Part shown: piece by piece, positions 4,729-15,631 of the stretch
Layout of the letters: each line of letters opens with the position of its first letter
Numbering within the stretch: position 1 is the stretch's first letter
Assembly (NCBI GenBank): GCA_003284215.1
Contig: QBVW01000002.1
Location: forward strand, 62,001 to 126,000
Length of the DNA stretch: 64,000 nucleotides
Source: SAR86 cluster bacterium AG-313-D11
GTDB taxonomy: Bacteria > Pseudomonadota > Gammaproteobacteria > Magnimaribacterales > D2472
Reading direction: 5' to 3'
Position numbers and translations under genes: made by a program
The notes under the pieces: model-generated
Database searches by the model: none
The model's input: the letters and a program-made list of their open reading frames with translations, nothing else
What the model was told of the DNA's origin: nothing

Positions 4729-5775
4729 CTACTTACTTTTATTTATAGATCTAAGAATGGGATTAAAAGGAACAATTTTAAAGTTTTGATTCTTCAGCTC
4801 TTCCCCATCATAGTTATAACCGTCCTGAGCGACCATTAAACCCTTAGAAAATTTTCCTCTTAGATTGAAGTTTGTAACGTCAATGCCGTCGGTTTCTGAT
4901 GTGCCATCAATGCCTTCTGGGTCATCGTCAATAGTAAAACTTGAGATAAATTCGTGAGGATACATTCGATTATAAACGTTGTATTTATTATCTCCTTGGG
5001 ATGAAAGTAAGATATAACCCTCTTTTTCAGAAGTTTTATAGATTGTAAGCCCCTCTGGATCACCGCCAATATTTCCCTTTCGAGAATCCACAATAAAGGG
5101 ACTTTCAAATGGAAATTCATTATTTAAGTTGTAGGCTTTTAAAACACCATTCACCTCTTCCTCTGAAATAAATACCGTCTTATTTTCATCATCAAAAACA
5201 CAGCCTTCTGATTCGCCTCCATTGCTGAAAGTGCCTATTAGTGTTCGAGTCTGAGGTACCCACAACTCAACTCGAGGACCTTTATCCTCTGTAATGAAAA
5301 CGATCGGCACTCCATCAATCAAGCCGGCGCAAATACCATAAACATCTATGTTAGTTTGAATGGTCATTGACCTAGTAGCAATACCGAAAAGATTACCTGA
5401 TTGCGGAAGATTATTAAAAAAATCTTGCTGATTAAATTCCCAAAACTCAATTGATTTAGCTGTTCTATTTGACGCAGCCACATAAATTTTATTATCAACC
5501 TGTCTTACATCAATATTATTTATTTCACCAAGCGCAGCATATGATATTTTTTTTCCAGAAAGATCATATGAATAGACTCCTGCTCGTTTATCAGTTCCAA
5601 GAATTATTGACTGCTGTGGGTTGCTAAAATTAATAACTATTGCCGGGTCATCTGCAGCATCACCACTCGTTGTAACTGGCTCCGTCTCAGCAATCGCAAT
5701 GATAGAGTTATTATCGGAACACCCCACGAACAAGAAAATATTTAGTATTAAGGATAGTTTTATAAATTTAGACAT
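4729..5775 (-). CDS. beta-propeller (3-)phytase, lipoprotein signal
   Basis: LFVGC lipobox; BPP-like stretches DDPAIVINFSNPQQSIILGTDKRAGVYSYDLSGK, INNIDVR, GGDPEGLTIY, DDPEGIDGTSETDGIDV. Confidence 0.85.
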   Translation of the reverse strand: MSKFIKLSLILNIFLFVGCSDNNSIIAIAETEPVTTSGDAADDPAIVINFSNPQQSIILGTDKRAGVYSYDLSGKKISYAALGEINNIDVRQVDNKIYVAASNRTAKSIEFWEFNQQDFFNNLPQSGNLFGIATRSMTIQTNIDVYGICAGLIDGVPIVFITEDKGPRVELWVPQTRTLIGTFSNGGESEGCVFDDENKTVFISEEEVNGVLKAYNLNNEFPFESPFIVDSRKGNIGGDPEGLTIYKTSEKEGYILLSSQGDNKYNVYNRMYPHEFISSFTIDDDPEGIDGTSETDGIDVTNFNLRGKFSKGLMVAQDGYNYDGEELKNQNFKIVPFNPILRSINKSK

Positions 5776-5813: not shown

Positions 5814-6743
5814 TTAGAATTTGTGCTCTATGCCAATTGAAAAAATATCTTTAGCTTTTCTTTTATTAAAAGACTCTAGTTGAGAATAGAATGTAAAGAT
5901 CTTGGATGATTTCCTTAACTGATAATCGTAGCCGATTGTTGTATGCTTGCCTGAATCAATTTTCATGCTTGATGAGGCGCGCTGAATTTTGAATGTACCT
6001 TTTGGACCAATTCTTCTTGAGAAACTAATCACATGACCATTCTTTGTCATGCCCGATGCAAGATTTTTAGTCTTCTGATTTAGCAGCCCGAGCTTTGATT
6101 TGTCTAGTGGAATTAAAATCGCGAGTCTTGAGGCGTCATACCCCTTCATTGAGTCGTCAACCCCAATAGCTGCTTGAAATAGATTTCCAGAAAAATTGAC
6201 TGAGTAAGATCTATACTTCTTGTCTGAAGATGAGGGATTCTTGATGGAATTGAATGTTGCAGAAATCTTACCCATGTACTTTGGGGTCGTGTAACCAATA
6301 AAATCTTCTAAACGATTTTCACCATGCAAAATATTTTTTATGTCAGGAGCCAGGTCATTGAATAGATCTATTTTTAATTGAGATTTTTTGAAAGCGGAAT
6401 CATGTGTACCAGCAAAAAGCATGCCTAAATCTGTTTGAATACCAACAAAAGTATTTCGCTGCTTTAAGGTCCCATCATCGCCTCTCGCCTTTCCGTCAAC
6501 GGGATCAAATTGATACTCTGCTTGATAAACTAACTTAAGTTTAGAGTTATCTGATAATAAGAAGCTACCTTTAATGCCAAATCTTGAGGCATTATTATTT
6601 ACATCGGTTTTATTACCATTTATATCATTTGAAGTAGATTGATAATCAATAAATACTTTTCCATACCAATCATGTGATGCATAAAGCTGATTGTTAATTC
6701 CAAATATTATAAAAACTGCAACATAAAAAGACCTAAGAGCCAT
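5814..6743 (-). CDS. gram-negative porin
   Basis: Signal peptide, GKVFIDYQST..., SRFGIKGSFLLSDNSKLKLVYQAEYQFD, C-terminal Phe (GIEHKF). Confidence 0.82.
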   Translation of the reverse strand: MALRSFYVAVFIIFGINNQLYASHDWYGKVFIDYQSTSNDINGNKTDVNNNASRFGIKGSFLLSDNSKLKLVYQAEYQFDPVDGKARGDDGTLKQRNTFVGIQTDLGMLFAGTHDSAFKKSQLKIDLFNDLAPDIKNILHGENRLEDFIGYTTPKYMGKISATFNSIKNPSSSDKKYRSYSVNFSGNLFQAAIGVDDSMKGYDASRLAILIPLDKSKLGLLNQKTKNLASGMTKNGHVISFSRRIGPKGTFKIQRASSSMKIDSGKHTTIGYDYQLRKSSKIFTFYSQLESFNKRKAKDIFSIGIEHKF

Positions 6744-6746
6744 TCT

Positions 6747-7997
6747 TTAGACTCCAAAAATAATTCTTAGTAGTACGTAGAATAAAACAGTAAAGGCAGC
6801 TCCCGCGGGGATTGTTACAAGCCATGAGGCTATAATTCTTTTGATTGATGCAAAATCAAGATGCTCCGCTCCCTTTGCCAAACCAACACCTATAACGCCA
6901 CCAACTAAAGTATGAGTTGTTGAGATTGGGAAGCCTAAATAAGATGCAGCTACTACAGTTGATGCAGTTGCCATTTCTGCTGAAAATCCAAGGCTTGGTG
7001 TTAATGCAGTAATTTTCCTGCCTACAGTTTTGATAACTCTTGATCCAAGGGTAGCCAAACCGAAAACTATACCAATACCACCGACAAATAAAACCCAGGG
7101 ACTAATAGCTGCCTTGGAACCAATTTCACCAGTATCAACAACACTAACAATTGCAGCCAATGGGCCAATTGCATTAGCCACGTCATTAGAGCCATGAGCA
7201 AAGGCCATAGCACTGGCTGAAACTATCATTAGCAATCCAAATGCAAATTCAATACCGCCCTCTCGCATAATTTGTTCTTTGTTATTTCTTAGGAAGAATG
7301 ATGTTGCCAGCCCAACCAGGGAACTGAATATTGCAATGAATAAATAAACTTCATTATCACTGAACTCAACTCCAACATGCTTTAAACCCTTTCTTGCTGT
7401 GACTAGGGAAATTACAGCAGCGACAAGAAAGCTATAAAAAGGGATGTACTTTATTGCAGCTTCTCCAGGATTAGATCTATCTAAAATAAGTTTTTTAGCT
7501 GAAATATATAGACCAAATGCTAATGTCCCTGAAAATAGCGGAGAAGTAACCCAGCTCATAGCAATATTTCCTACTTTTCCCCATGAGACTGCATCAACAC
7601 CCTTAGTAATTAATACAAAACCAATAATGGATCCAACTATCGTATGTGTGGTTGAAACAGGCCACCCTCTCAAACTGGCAACGTATAACCAAGTACCTCC
7701 TGCTAGGAGCGCAGATAACATACCAATAACAAATATATTTGTTTCATTCACATATAACTGAGGATCTACGATACCTTTTCTAATTGTAGATGTGACTTCG
7801 CCACCTGCGAGGAAAGCACCTAAAAACTCAAATATTGCTGCAATGATAATTGCTTGCTTAATTGTGATTGCTTTACTTCCTACTGAAGTACCCATGGAAT
7901 TAGCGACATCATTTGCTCCAATGCCAAAAGCCATAAAAAAGCCAATAAAACCAGCTATAAGTAATATTGTATAAGGTTCTAAAAATAAGGTTTCCAT
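6747..7997 (-). CDS. pit: inorganic phosphate transporter, PiT family
   Basis: Duplicated signatures GANDVANSMGTSVGSKAI and HGSNDVANAIGPLAAI; GWPVSTTHTIVGSIIG and GFPISTTHTLVGGVIG. Confidence 0.94.
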   Translation of the reverse strand: METLFLEPYTILLIAGFIGFFMAFGIGANDVANSMGTSVGSKAITIKQAIIIAAIFEFLGAFLAGGEVTSTIRKGIVDPQLYVNETNIFVIGMLSALLAGGTWLYVASLRGWPVSTTHTIVGSIIGFVLITKGVDAVSWGKVGNIAMSWVTSPLFSGTLAFGLYISAKKLILDRSNPGEAAIKYIPFYSFLVAAVISLVTARKGLKHVGVEFSDNEVYLFIAIFSSLVGLATSFFLRNNKEQIMREGGIEFAFGLLMIVSASAMAFAHGSNDVANAIGPLAAIVSVVDTGEIGSKAAISPWVLFVGGIGIVFGLATLGSRVIKTVGRKITALTPSLGFSAEMATASTVVAASYLGFPISTTHTLVGGVIGVGLAKGAEHLDFASIKRIIASWLVTIPAGAAFTVLFYVLLRIIFGV

Positions 7998-8087
7998 ATT
8001 AAAAAATTAAGTAATTAAATATGGTGTTAATTAAACTAGATTAATATGAAAACTAAATTTCATTTTTGTAACATTTTAATGAACCAA

Positions 8088-8104
8088 ATGACGTCAAAAT
8101 GACA
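8088..8104 (-). promoter_or_regulatory. putative Pho box (two 11-bp units) upstream of pit-porin-phytase
   Basis: Minus strand reads TGTCATTTTGA|CGTCATTTGGT, resembling PhoB-type 11-bp repeats, about 90 bp upstream of the pit start codon. Confidence 0.5.
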
Positions 8105-8152
8105 CCATTTATCCATCGTAATGATTGACGTTAATTTAAGAGGTATATTTTT

Positions 8153-8278
8153 TTAAGAGAAAAATATTACAGCTGCTAAAACAATCCACATAGAAAAAAA
8201 TCCAAACATTTGCATTTCATTTAATTTGGATGTTTTTGGGAGCAAGCCCTGCTGTTTAAGTACTTTTTTTGTATTCAT
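8153..8278 (-). CDS. small hypothetical membrane protein, 41 aa
   Basis: Not in the supplied ORF track. ATG at 8278-8276, TAA at 8155-8153: MNTKKVLKQQGLLPKTSKLNEMQMFGFFSMWIVLAAVIFFS with a C-terminal hydrophobic segment. Confidence 0.4.
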   Translation of the reverse strand: MNTKKVLKQQGLLPKTSKLNEMQMFGFFSMWIVLAAVIFFS

Positions 8279-8294
8279 AATTCTAGTTTCGTTT

Positions 8295-8322
8295 GTGACA
8301 CATTAATGACACACAAATGACA
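8295..8322 (-). promoter_or_regulatory. putative Pho box (three 11-bp units)
   Basis: Minus strand TGTCATTTGTG|TGTCATTAATG|TGTCAC: three TGTCA(T/C) motifs at exact 11-bp spacing; TAGAAT lies just downstream. Confidence 0.6.
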
Positions 8323-8394
8323 CAATACATGAATTTATTGATAAGTGCTACATTTATTTGTTTTTTTTACAACAAATGTCGATAATAAGAAATC

Positions 8395-11363: not shown

Positions 11364-13121
11364 CTATGATAAAGGAAGAGTAAACCAGAACTCGGAACCA
11401 CCCTCCTTTCTTGTTTCAACACCAACATCACCTTGTAGGTTATTTACAAGATTCCGAACTATGGCAAGGCCAAGTCCGCTGCCTTGTTTTGTATTGGCTC
11501 TTGCTTTGGCTGTTCGATAGAATCTTTTGAAAACAAATTTTTGCTCTTCCTCTGGCACTCCCTCACCAAAGTCTAGAACCGAAATGCGCAAAAAACCAGC
11601 TTGTTTTCTTGCCTTAATTTCAATTAGTGAACTCTCCGGACTATATTTAAACGCATTATCAATTAGGTTATTTAAAACCCTTTCGATAGCTTTAGTATCA
11701 CTCTGCACTTCAACATCAGTTTGACGATTAAATACTAAATCAATATTTTTTCTTTTTGCTTTATTTCTAAATGACGAGATTGCAGTTTCAATCACTTCAT
11801 TAATAACAATTGGCTCTATGACAAATTTTAAATCTCCGTATTCAATTCGTGATAAATCTATTAATGAGGTTACCATTTCGCTTAGGCGATCTGCATTATG
11901 CAAAATAGCCTTAGAAAATGTTTTAGCATCCTTCGAATTATCTAACGCCCCATTTAATAACGTTTCAGAATTTGCTTTGATAACACTTACCGGGGTTCTA
12001 AGTTCATGCGATAAGTTAGAAACAAAATCTCTTCGCATGGAATCCATCTCTCTCAGCTGAGTGGTTTCATGTACCACTAAAATTAATTCTTTTGTTGCCT
12101 TGGCTTTATTCATATGAGCCAAAATCCATCTTGTTTCATCTCCATCAGTATCAATCTCAAATTCACTATCATGTTGGCCCTTTTTTAAAGCTTTTTTATA
12201 AAGTTGTTTTAGGGGAGGTACATTTAAGTCAATAATTGATTTATTTAAAATTTCATCCAAGCCGAGAATTTGCATGATCTGATCATTTCGAAAAGTAATA
12301 ATGCCATCTTCATCAAGCACCATAATCCCCTCTCCCAAACCGTCTAAAACCAAGCCAAATTGGTCTCTTTGTTTCGCAATTAAAGAAATTTGTTCTTTTA
12401 AATTTAAAGATATGGTTGAAATATTCCTTGCCATAGAACCAAATTCATCTGACCGTTTAGTAGGCAGAGATTCTAGATTTTTTTTCTTATAACTACCTGC
12501 AGAAATTTCAGCAGCAGCCTTTTCTAGCTCTACAAAACTAGCTCTAATATAATCTCCAGCAAGCACGCTTGCTAAAATTGCAACAATGAGACCCACGACT
12601 ACGATAAGAGTGATCGAATTACCTAAAGATGCTAAAACCTGATCTAAATTCTCATAGGGAACTGATATCCTAATGACCCTTTCTTGATTATTATTTTTAT
12701 CTAAAAGTGCGAAATAAAACATTTCTTTCTTAACTGTCGAGCTGAATCTCTTGCTTGATCCATAGCCATTTTTAAAGGCGGAAATGATTTCTGGTCTATC
12801 ACTATGATTATCAAGCTCATTGATTCTGCTAACCTCAATATCAGAGTCAACAATTACATCACCATTTTTTAAAATAATGGTTATCCTAGAATCAGAGGCA
12901 GAAGCATATTCATCGGCCTCAGCTTTTAATGCAAACAAGTCACCAGAATCTATTAAGCCTGATATTGATTTTCTTAAAATTTTTGCTTGTCTTGAAAGCT
13001 CGGTTTCTATCTGCGCTTGAAGCTTGATGGATAAATCTCTTTCAGCAACAATAAAAGAGAGAGAAATACCAACAAATAAGCATGAGAGCGTAATAAAGAA
13101 AATTCGGGTCCTAATACCCAT
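11364..13121 (-). CDS. phoR: sensor histidine kinase, PhoR-like
   Basis: DFVSNLSHELRTPVSVI H-box, NLIDNAFKYSPES, GSGLGLAIV; two TM segments with HAMP/PAS; paired with PhoB. Confidence 0.87.
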   Translation of the reverse strand: MGIRTRIFFITLSCLFVGISLSFIVAERDLSIKLQAQIETELSRQAKILRKSISGLIDSGDLFALKAEADEYASASDSRITIILKNGDVIVDSDIEVSRINELDNHSDRPEIISAFKNGYGSSKRFSSTVKKEMFYFALLDKNNNQERVIRISVPYENLDQVLASLGNSITLIVVVGLIVAILASVLAGDYIRASFVELEKAAAEISAGSYKKKNLESLPTKRSDEFGSMARNISTISLNLKEQISLIAKQRDQFGLVLDGLGEGIMVLDEDGIITFRNDQIMQILGLDEILNKSIIDLNVPPLKQLYKKALKKGQHDSEFEIDTDGDETRWILAHMNKAKATKELILVVHETTQLREMDSMRRDFVSNLSHELRTPVSVIKANSETLLNGALDNSKDAKTFSKAILHNADRLSEMVTSLIDLSRIEYGDLKFVIEPIVINEVIETAISSFRNKAKRKNIDLVFNRQTDVEVQSDTKAIERVLNNLIDNAFKYSPESSLIEIKARKQAGFLRISVLDFGEGVPEEEQKFVFKRFYRTAKARANTKQGSGLGLAIVRNLVNNLQGDVGVETRKEGGSEFWFTLPLS

Positions 13122-13126
13122 ACTAA

Positions 13127-13822
13127 TTAATCTGCGTCTTTAGAAAAGCGATACCCTACTCCACGAATTGTTAGAATGTGCTCGCCAAATGGGCCAAGTT
13201 TTTCTCTAAGTCGCTTTATATGAGTATCTACTGTTCTAGTTGTTACATCAGAACTATAACCCCAAACATCTTCAAGCAATTGATCCCTTGATTGAACCCT
13301 ACCCTTTCTGTCAATTAGATGTTTGAGCAATCTAAATTCTAATGCAGTTAGAGAGATTTCCTTGCCATCTAGGTGAGCCTGGTGAGCTTCGTAATTTAAT
13401 ATTAGCCCGTCAAATGAATATTCGGTATTAACTGATTGGTCTTGTTTAGTAGGACCCCTTTTTAAGATGGCTTTAACTCTTAGAATCAATTCTCGAACGC
13501 TGAAAGGCTTAGTTACGTAATCATCGGCACCCAGTTCAAAACCAACTACTCTATCAACCTCCTCAGTTTTTGCAGTTAGTATTATGACGGGTATATGTTT
13601 TGTTTGGGATTCAGATTTTATATCTCTGCATAAGGTAAGACCAGATCCATCTGGCAGCATCAGATCTAAAATAACTAAATCAATTTTATCTGAAGCCAAA
13701 ATCTGCTCGCCTTCTTGTATGGAAGCTGCTTGCAAAACTTTAAAGGATTCTTTAGAAAGATTGTAGTCAATCGTTTTACGAATATCAGGTTCGTCTTCTA
13801 TGATTAAAATTCGTGATGGCAT
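13127..13822 (-). CDS. phoB: phosphate regulon response regulator, PhoB-like
   Basis: OmpR-family receiver (LVILDLMLPDGSG, ADDYVTKPFSVREL) plus winged helix (DVWGYSSDVTTRTVDTHIKRLREKL, RGVGYRF). Confidence 0.88.
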   Translation of the reverse strand: MPSRILIIEDEPDIRKTIDYNLSKESFKVLQAASIQEGEQILASDKIDLVILDLMLPDGSGLTLCRDIKSESQTKHIPVIILTAKTEEVDRVVGFELGADDYVTKPFSVRELILRVKAILKRGPTKQDQSVNTEYSFDGLILNYEAHQAHLDGKEISLTALEFRLLKHLIDRKGRVQSRDQLLEDVWGYSSDVTTRTVDTHIKRLREKLGPFGEHILTIRGVGYRFSKDAD

Positions 13823-13880: not shown

Positions 13881-15593
13881 TTATGATTGATTTTGCTCAA
13901 TTGATACAAAACTGTCGCGCAACTGTGTCTTAGAGAATTTGCCTGAAGCAACTCTTGGAAGTTCTTCATAGCTTATTTGCATCAAGGAAGGGATTTTAAA
14001 CGAAGCTAGCTTATCGTGTAAAAAATCTTTTAAATCTTGTTCTATTAATTCCATTGAAGGCTTTAGGCAGATCGCAACACACAAAGTTTCACCGAGACGT
14101 TCTTCGGGGATACCAAATACAGCAGCTTCCTGGACTGATGGATGTGAATAGATTGCAGTCTCAACTTCAATGCAGGAAATATTTTCTCCACCTCTAATTA
14201 CCATATCTTTAACTCTGTCCACGATGTAAACAAAGCCATCATCTATGTACCCCAAATCTCCGGATTTAAACCAACCATCATCATTAAAAACTTCTTTGGT
14301 TGCCTCTTCGTTTTTCCAGTACCCCACCATATTAGCTGGGCTTTTGATAACAATCTCTCCAACTGCTTTTGGCTCTGAAAGAAAATTCCAATTTTCGTCA
14401 ATAATTCTAACATCCGTTACAGGAGGTATTGCCCGACCACAACTACCTGGATGATTAAGATAATCCTTACCCAGATTTAAAGTTCCTGCTGCGTTAGTCT
14501 CAGTAAGACCATATCCAATAGAAGGCTCACTATCTTTAAAGCCATCTTTAAGCTTTTTTACGTGCTCAGGGGGTCTAGGAGCACCACCACCACTTAGTTC
14601 TTTAAAAGTTGATAAGTCATATTTGTCTCTGTCAGGATGAGTTAATAAGTCCCATGTTTGAGTTGGAACTCCGGTAATGGCCCCTATTTTTTCATCTTGA
14701 ATTAATTGTAAGGCTAAACCAGGATCCCATTTTGGCATCATCACCATTTTTCTTCCTGCAATGATGCTCATCAAAAATCCAGAATGGCTACCAGTTACGT
14801 GGAATAATGGAACGCAATGGAGAATAGCAGACTGATTTTGAGGCTCAGAGGCTGTTTGAGAATCTTTGGCTTGGTTAGCATCTGCATTGTCAACCTCTCT
14901 TTTTAAAGTCGTAACTAATGCCCAACTGAATAATGTTGCAAGAATATTTCGATGGGAAGAAAGGACTCCTTTTGGGAAACCAGTAGAGCCAGATGTATAA
15001 AAAATCGTCGCATGATCATTTGTATCTAAGCTTTGCTCCTTAAATTCATCAGATTGAGAGCTTATAAAACTATTAAAGTTTTCGTAATCATCACTGTGGT
15101 TATTAGACCTAACAACTATTTTTTTTAAAGTAGTAAATTTTTCGAGACCTCTTAATCTCTTTTCATCTGCAATAAGCACCATGGATTCAGAATTCTCAAG
15201 TCCATAAGTAACCTCATCAGGCACCCACCATGAATTAAGAAGGACGCAAACTGCACCCATGGATGTAATTGCCATAAATGAAATAATATATTCGGGATTA
15301 TTAGCCATACATATGGCAACTCGATCGCCCTTTTTTACGCCTAAAGCTTGAAGAGCATTAGCAGTTTGGGCAGATTTTTTAATGATTTCTTGATAGGTGT
15401 ATCTTTCATCTTTAAAAACAATGAACTCCCACTCAGGAAATAGAAGCCCAAATTCATAAAATTCAGTTAAGGTTTTTGGTGTATTTATAAACTCTCTATA
15501 GGTTATTCCAGAAACATGTTGCTTTTCTTGAGCTGCAAATATTTGGTCAGGAGCAGTTAAAGAATTTAGAATTTCTATATATTTTTCTGTCAT
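13881..15593 (-). CDS. AMP-binding acyl-CoA synthetase
   Basis: IFYTSGSTGFPKGVLSSHRN, GYGLTETN, FKSGDLGYIDDG, RVASGKFSK motifs. Confidence 0.92.
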   Translation of the reverse strand: MTEKYIEILNSLTAPDQIFAAQEKQHVSGITYREFINTPKTLTEFYEFGLLFPEWEFIVFKDERYTYQEIIKKSAQTANALQALGVKKGDRVAICMANNPEYIISFMAITSMGAVCVLLNSWWVPDEVTYGLENSESMVLIADEKRLRGLEKFTTLKKIVVRSNNHSDDYENFNSFISSQSDEFKEQSLDTNDHATIFYTSGSTGFPKGVLSSHRNILATLFSWALVTTLKREVDNADANQAKDSQTASEPQNQSAILHCVPLFHVTGSHSGFLMSIIAGRKMVMMPKWDPGLALQLIQDEKIGAITGVPTQTWDLLTHPDRDKYDLSTFKELSGGGAPRPPEHVKKLKDGFKDSEPSIGYGLTETNAAGTLNLGKDYLNHPGSCGRAIPPVTDVRIIDENWNFLSEPKAVGEIVIKSPANMVGYWKNEEATKEVFNDDGWFKSGDLGYIDDGFVYIVDRVKDMVIRGGENISCIEVETAIYSHPSVQEAAVFGIPEERLGETLCVAICLKPSMELIEQDLKDFLHDKLASFKIPSLMQISYEELPRVASGKFSKTQLRDSFVSIEQNQS

Positions 15594-15631
15594 AATAATT
15601 AACTATAAAATGATAGATATCCTAAACTAAA

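Follow-up and report, generated by a model that had tools for sequence, protein, structure and literature searches.

How is phosphate uptake controlled when the gene for a phosphate transporter is preceded by two separate arrays of PhoB-type repeats, with a short open reading frame between them? This arrangement is found in a member of the SAR86 cluster, which is among the most abundant bacterial groups of the surface ocean and whose phosphate uptake has been little described so far. The window analyzed here is a 64,000-nt stretch of DNA, part of a 1.3-Mb SAR86 cluster assembly; the genome-wide scans described below are pattern searches.

Genes and genomic setting

The three genes in question are encoded on the minus strand. 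They code for a phosphate transporter of the PHO4/Pit family (pit, positions 6747 to 7997; PF01384, 376 bits against a curated cut-off of 33.7), a Gram-negative porin (5814 to 6743; PF13609), and a beta-propeller phytase-like phosphatase that appears to be a lipoprotein (4729 to 5775; PF02333, 187.5 bits against a curated cut-off of 21). The gaps of 3 and 38 nt reported between them in the original prediction are correct on re-reading. The description of the three genes as a self-contained operon holds only in part. They form a co-directional string that is kept across the genus, but the porin and phytase genes are not fixed members of the unit formed by pit and the small gene before it (referred to below as mini), which in another SAR86 family is found in a different neighborhood.

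PhoB and PhoR are encoded within 11364 to 13822, as predicted: the sensor kinase, of the PhoR/PnpS type, at 11364 to 13121 and the response regulator at 13127 to 13822, both on the minus strand. The top match of the latter is TIGR02154, though with a score under the cut-off of that model. This PhoB is 42% identical to its Escherichia coli namesake, and its recognition helix reads RTVDTHIKRLR, compared with RTVDVHIRRLR in E. coli. The window also encodes ppk2 and a ppx-like gene.

Two arrays of 11-bp repeats

Direct reading of the sequence confirms that both predicted 11-bp arrays exist on the minus strand and point toward pit. The upstream array (8279 to 8323) consists of four units: TGTCATTTGTG (8322 to 8312), TGTCATTAATG (8311 to 8301), TGTCACAAACG (8300 to 8290), and a degenerate fourth unit (8289 to 8279). 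In an alignment of 28 distinct upstream sequences, the near-invariant columns are G at −1, 10, 21, and 32 and C at 3, 14, 25, and 36; among these relatives, unit 2 mostly reads TGACA. A search for the three-unit pattern that tolerated one mismatch at most had matches in 52 of the 202 SAR86 genomes, in almost every case a single one per genome; its reversed control yields only 3 matches. Conservation in relatives, which had been proposed as a check on the arrays, is thus seen in both the alignment and the genome survey.

Across the 1.3-Mb assembly, the motif TGTCATN5TGTCAY is matched exactly at two places, which are the two overlapping steps of the upstream array. When two mismatches are allowed, the 64-kb window contains 11 sites, equal to the 11.7 expected by chance. 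The proposed scan with a PhoB matrix, carried out with an E. coli Pho-box matrix, gives a mixed result: the upstream array is the top-scoring site of the window, yet its score does not rise above the maximum for a random 64-kb sequence. Because the E. coli matrix is not significant by itself, it was dropped as sole evidence, and the case for the array is built on exact spacing and conservation.

The second array (8063 to 8104, minus strand) contains units at offsets 0, 11, 20, and 31. The first two are TGTCATTTTGA (8104 to 8094) and CGTCATTTGGT (8093 to 8083), and those at offsets 20 and 31 from 8104 are weaker. The array lies where it had been predicted, although the end point given then, 8088, truncates unit 2, which in fact ends at 8083. 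Its score with the E. coli matrix is weak, and it is one of 11 single-mismatch TGTCATN5TGTCAY sites in the assembly. Nine of the ten others, all inspected, are intragenic; the exception (L040:1501-1517, C6 of the same genome) is an intergenic site about 225 nt upstream of a gene for a TonB-dependent-receptor-like protein. In the gap between mini and pit of 11 divergent loci, the spacing of TGTCA-like pairs has its peak at 11 bp exactly, with 8 pairs against 0.85 expected (p=0.002). When a matrix is built from the upstream array, it also picks up the region next to pit in loci that carry mini (Fisher p=5e-8, a value that is overstated since the loci are related) and, weakly, in genera that lack mini (p=0.002).

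Relation to the Pho regulon

The same three-unit array is found in the f3-g15 genomes (G040, G058, and others) about 92 nt upstream of an aqpS-arsC-pstSCAB operon, in which PstC was identified by family search and the other genes were named from their sequences. Both G040 and G058 encode PstC and no Pit. The presence of the same array before pstSCAB in pit-less relatives ties it to the Pho regulon. Together with the 11-bp TGTCA repeats and the nearly identical recognition helix of the PhoB encoded, with PhoR, near the locus, it upholds the original assignment: both arrays are almost certainly PhoB-type sites, at which PhoB is predicted to bind. In the Pst-bearing SAR86 members (L110:942-1034 onward in G040; L111 to L116), the array is followed by aquaporin-like and arsC-like genes and pstSCAB, an operon that joins phosphate uptake with probable arsenate handling.

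Assignment of the upstream repeats to another regulator, such as the neighboring TetR or a different OmpR-family protein, has some features in its favor. In this genus a tetR gene adjoins the locus divergently, the units read GTGTCA and not CTGTCA, and TGACA in unit 2 lets part of the array be read as an inverted repeat. However, the array persists in the locus of the second family, which has no tetR, and a TetR operator was rejected for this reason. The inverted-repeat reading was rejected as well, since the G and C positions recur in one orientation over all four units. As the same array also precedes the pst operon, a regulator other than PhoB appears extremely improbable.

PstC was not found in the genome analyzed here or in the 25 other genomes of the genus that were searched. 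An assembly gap is an unlikely reason for its absence from every one of these genomes, though some of the assemblies are incomplete. With no Pst found in the genus, Pit appears both to carry phosphate uptake and to stand under PhoB control.

A 41-residue membrane protein encoded before pit

The open reading frame between the arrays (8153 to 8278, minus strand) is, judging from its conservation, a genuine gene, a status that the original prediction had not recognized. Within the SAR86 order, 37 of 203 genomes, from two families, carry one copy each, and in nearly all loci the gene has 41 codons. Wherever the contig extends further, mini is followed by pit, and it is never found elsewhere. Pairwise differences are concentrated at the third codon position (2159, 771, and 3655 at positions 1, 2, and 3, respectively), and the median dN/dS of 0.20 indicates purifying selection. 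The protein has a basic N terminus, which is conserved at the amino acid level, and one long predicted membrane helix (residues 16 to 40, pLDDT 83); its conserved residues include E21, M22, and G26.

Assignment of mini to a known family was abandoned, as it has no match in Pfam (best chance hit, E 0.06). No phage-borne copy is present among the viral contigs searched. Replacement of PhoU_div by mini was also considered and dropped: PhoU_div/DUF47 (PF01865) was not found in the genus and is confined to another SAR86 family.

Being small, with a single predicted membrane helix and an upstream position, mini could also be read as a leader peptide or as a small membrane toxin, without partnership with Pit. 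Such an identity is very improbable, because mini always precedes one Pit clade and is never found elsewhere, its N terminus is conserved as amino acids, and the interval between mini and pit contains neither an intrinsic terminator nor a riboswitch or other RNA element recognizable in Rfam, which led to the rejection of an RNA-element reading.

Phylogenetic analysis places the mini-bearing Pits in a single clade (support, 99/97), with mini present in 20 of 20 loci, versus 0 of 10 for other Pits. One member of the genus, G018, encodes the other Pit type, without mini. Between the two families, the Pit proteins of the clade are 84 to 89% identical (L021 and L017 compared with the window gene at 6747 to 7997), versus about 30 to 55% for the products of neighboring genes. 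This contrast suggests that mini-pit has moved between families as a cassette. The joint inheritance of mini and one Pit clade, combined with purifying selection, argues for a function tied to Pit. This genetic linkage is the ground for the proposal that mini may act on Pit.

A candidate promoter overlapping the upstream array

In the alignment of the 28 upstream sequences, which is anchored on array unit 1, column conservation also outlines a candidate promoter, P0, on the minus strand. Its −35-like element is TAGCAC (8345 to 8350; TTGATA or TTGCAT in some relatives), with T at column −28 and G at column −26 conserved at 98% (weighted). The −10-like element, TATTGT (8322 to 8327; TAATGT in one genus), occupies columns −5 to 0 and follows the pattern TA[T/A]TGT, in which T1, A2, T4, G5, and T6 are invariant; T is likewise invariant at columns −10 and −7. 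The combined pattern, T[A/T/G]G-17-TA[T/A]TGT, is sigma70-like with an exact 17-bp spacer. It is kept in the aligned loci, a second family included, and seven further f3-g15 loci agree with it. These elements are absent before the three-unit array of the pst operon, indicating that P0 is not part of PhoB recognition. A generic promoter scan returned nothing at its threshold for P0; like the second candidate promoter described below, P0 matches the consensus weakly and is proposed on the basis of its conservation. Transcription from P0 is predicted to start at about 8315, inside unit 1, which would leave some 37 nt of leader before mini.

A different reading makes the upstream array a simple activator site, with TAGAAT (8280 to 8285, minus strand), the hexamer pointed out in the original prediction, as the candidate −10 element. 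This reading is not supported: TAGAAT is not conserved in relatives and lies 1 nt from the mini ATG, so that the transcript would start inside mini. TAGAAT was rejected as the mini promoter, being too near the ATG for a translatable mini mRNA. Because the N terminus of mini is conserved as protein, its mRNA must start upstream of the gene, which makes P0 a better candidate than TAGAAT. With the predicted P0 start inside the array, the layout of the array is of the repressor type.

Boxes of the E. coli PhoB type are mostly activating, and plain activation has to be weighed accordingly: phosphorylated PhoB (PhoB~P) at the upstream array would drive mini, pit, porin, and phytase under limitation, with the second array as an auxiliary. 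In E. coli phoA, as verified on that promoter, the −10 element lies 16 nt from the start of the last unit, and AT-rich hexamers are found here at a similar distance, 15 nt past the start of unit 3. In a few lineages (L094, L096, and L106), the ATG is 48 to 57 nt from unit 1, which would permit a leaderless or short-leader mRNA, and in relatives pst is presumably activated through the same array. In most lineages, however, the ATG lies 1 to 3 nt past the hexamer, so that a start 5 to 8 nt downstream would be inside mini, whose N terminus is conserved; moreover, conservation is seen for P0 but not for the hexamer. The distance from the upstream array to the mini ATG is 44 to 57 nt, versus about 92 nt between array and gene in the pst operon, and the upstream array lacks the activator spacing, with a −10 element about 16 nt past the start of the last unit and a leader before the ATG. 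Plain activation is therefore rather unlikely.

A proposed PhoB-dependent switch

By contrast with the upstream array, the second array fits the activator layout. An extra unit-like sequence, TTTCATATTAA (8041 to 8051, minus strand), 22 nt further along than the unit at offset 31, may belong to it, and TTTAAT (8030 to 8035, minus strand) lies 16 nt past the start of this last unit. This candidate −10 element of a promoter P2 is weak, as its second position is not the usual A and as it varies between lineages; TTTAAT is nevertheless a plausible PhoB-activated promoter for pit-porin-phytase.

These features suggest a two-promoter switch before pit, with mini off and pit on in starvation, an arrangement that is considered somewhat likely, though unproven. 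Under phosphate-replete conditions, the sigma70-type P0 (−35 at 8350 to 8345, −10 at 8327 to 8322) would transcribe mini together with pit, and the membrane-bound mini protein would most likely restrain or modulate this type of Pit while phosphate is plentiful. Under limitation, PhoB~P would occupy the four-unit upstream array over the P0 start and block the mini-pit transcript; at the second array, it would activate P2, between mini and pit, yielding pit-porin-phytase mRNA without mini. PhoB binding, P0 repression, P2 activation, and the action of mini on Pit are each inferred here. Even if PhoB used a TAGAAT-like start, that start would fall inside mini and the gene would still be excluded from the transcript. 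On either route, mini should not be synthesized where PhoB is bound, and vice versa.

TAGAAT-driven starts within mini, as well as P2, would fit yet another explanation, in which both arrays activate pit under phosphate limitation by starting transcripts inside or after mini, while mini itself is made only by read-through or basal transcription and is not specifically connected with Pit. Because mini is strictly inherited together with one Pit clade and is under purifying selection, this is quite improbable. A more tentative proposal, somewhat less likely than not, is that the 41-residue proteins are a new family and a dedicated partner, probably an inhibitor, of one Pit clade; mini would be the leading gene of the pit mRNA and would be lost from it through the PhoB promoter switch in starvation, in bacteria with no Pst detected. 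If true, a dedicated small Pit partner under opposite regulation would give one transporter two modes in a compact form. Mini is a defined small protein open to testing.

Comparison with known systems

The first gene of the Sinorhizobium meliloti orfA-pit unit is the PhoU-like orfA. This unit is repressed on Pi starvation and has a Pho box just before its start codon (PMC3131613). The SAR86 locus resembles it in being a two-gene unit that ends in pit, with a Pho box right upstream of the first start codon, but differs in that the first gene encodes a 41-residue membrane protein and a second array precedes pit itself. More generally, Pit regulation varies by species (PMC4415409).

Compared with the E. 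coli Pho boxes of phoA and pstS, the SAR86 arrays share the 11-bp direct TGTCA repeats, and the recognition helix of PhoB is nearly identical, whereas the unit is GTGTCA, with unit 2 often TGACA. The E. coli box takes the place of the −35 element and leaves room for a leader; the SAR86 upstream array instead overlaps the start site predicted for a conserved promoter and is 44 nt from the ATG. At the E. coli phoB promoter, PhoB represses at the −10 region (PMC6194859), where half-sites lie near the −10 element, as the array does at P0. There, however, a weak site is found in an activated promoter, in contrast to the strong four-unit SAR86 array, which precedes a different gene.

In E. coli, the 31-residue protein MgtS inhibits PitA (PMC10710835). 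MgtS and mini are both small single-helix membrane proteins associated with a Pit transporter, an action on Pit being inferred for the latter; they have no sequence relationship evident by Pfam, and MgtS has a role in magnesium balance, whereas mini belongs to a PhoB locus before pit. The parts of the proposed switch thus have precedents, while in the open papers searched neither the combination nor the small-protein family was found described.

Other PhoB-like sites in SAR86

The SAR86 PhoB site defined here is usable to find the rest of the regulon, and several further sites were noted. In the window, a Pho-box-like sequence, TATATATTTTTCTGTCATAATAATTAACTAT, is found at 15576 to 15606, in the 38-bp divergent region that an S8 protease-like gene shares with the acyl-CoA synthetase gene upstream of phoB. 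In family f3 (L097:4811-4925), an upstream porin gene carries a two-unit box of its own, TTTTCACTAAATTGTCACATAT, followed about 17 nt further on by the −10-like TTATCT, which is the standard activator layout. PhoB-like arrays are found near or upstream of gspC/gspD-like type II secretion genes in two families (L101:8322-8401; L122 and L123, near position 1012), hinting that secretion might be phosphate controlled in both. In genus g7 of family f1 (L118 to L121, near position 1037), a PhoB-like array follows a PhoD-like phosphatase gene and lies between convergent genes.
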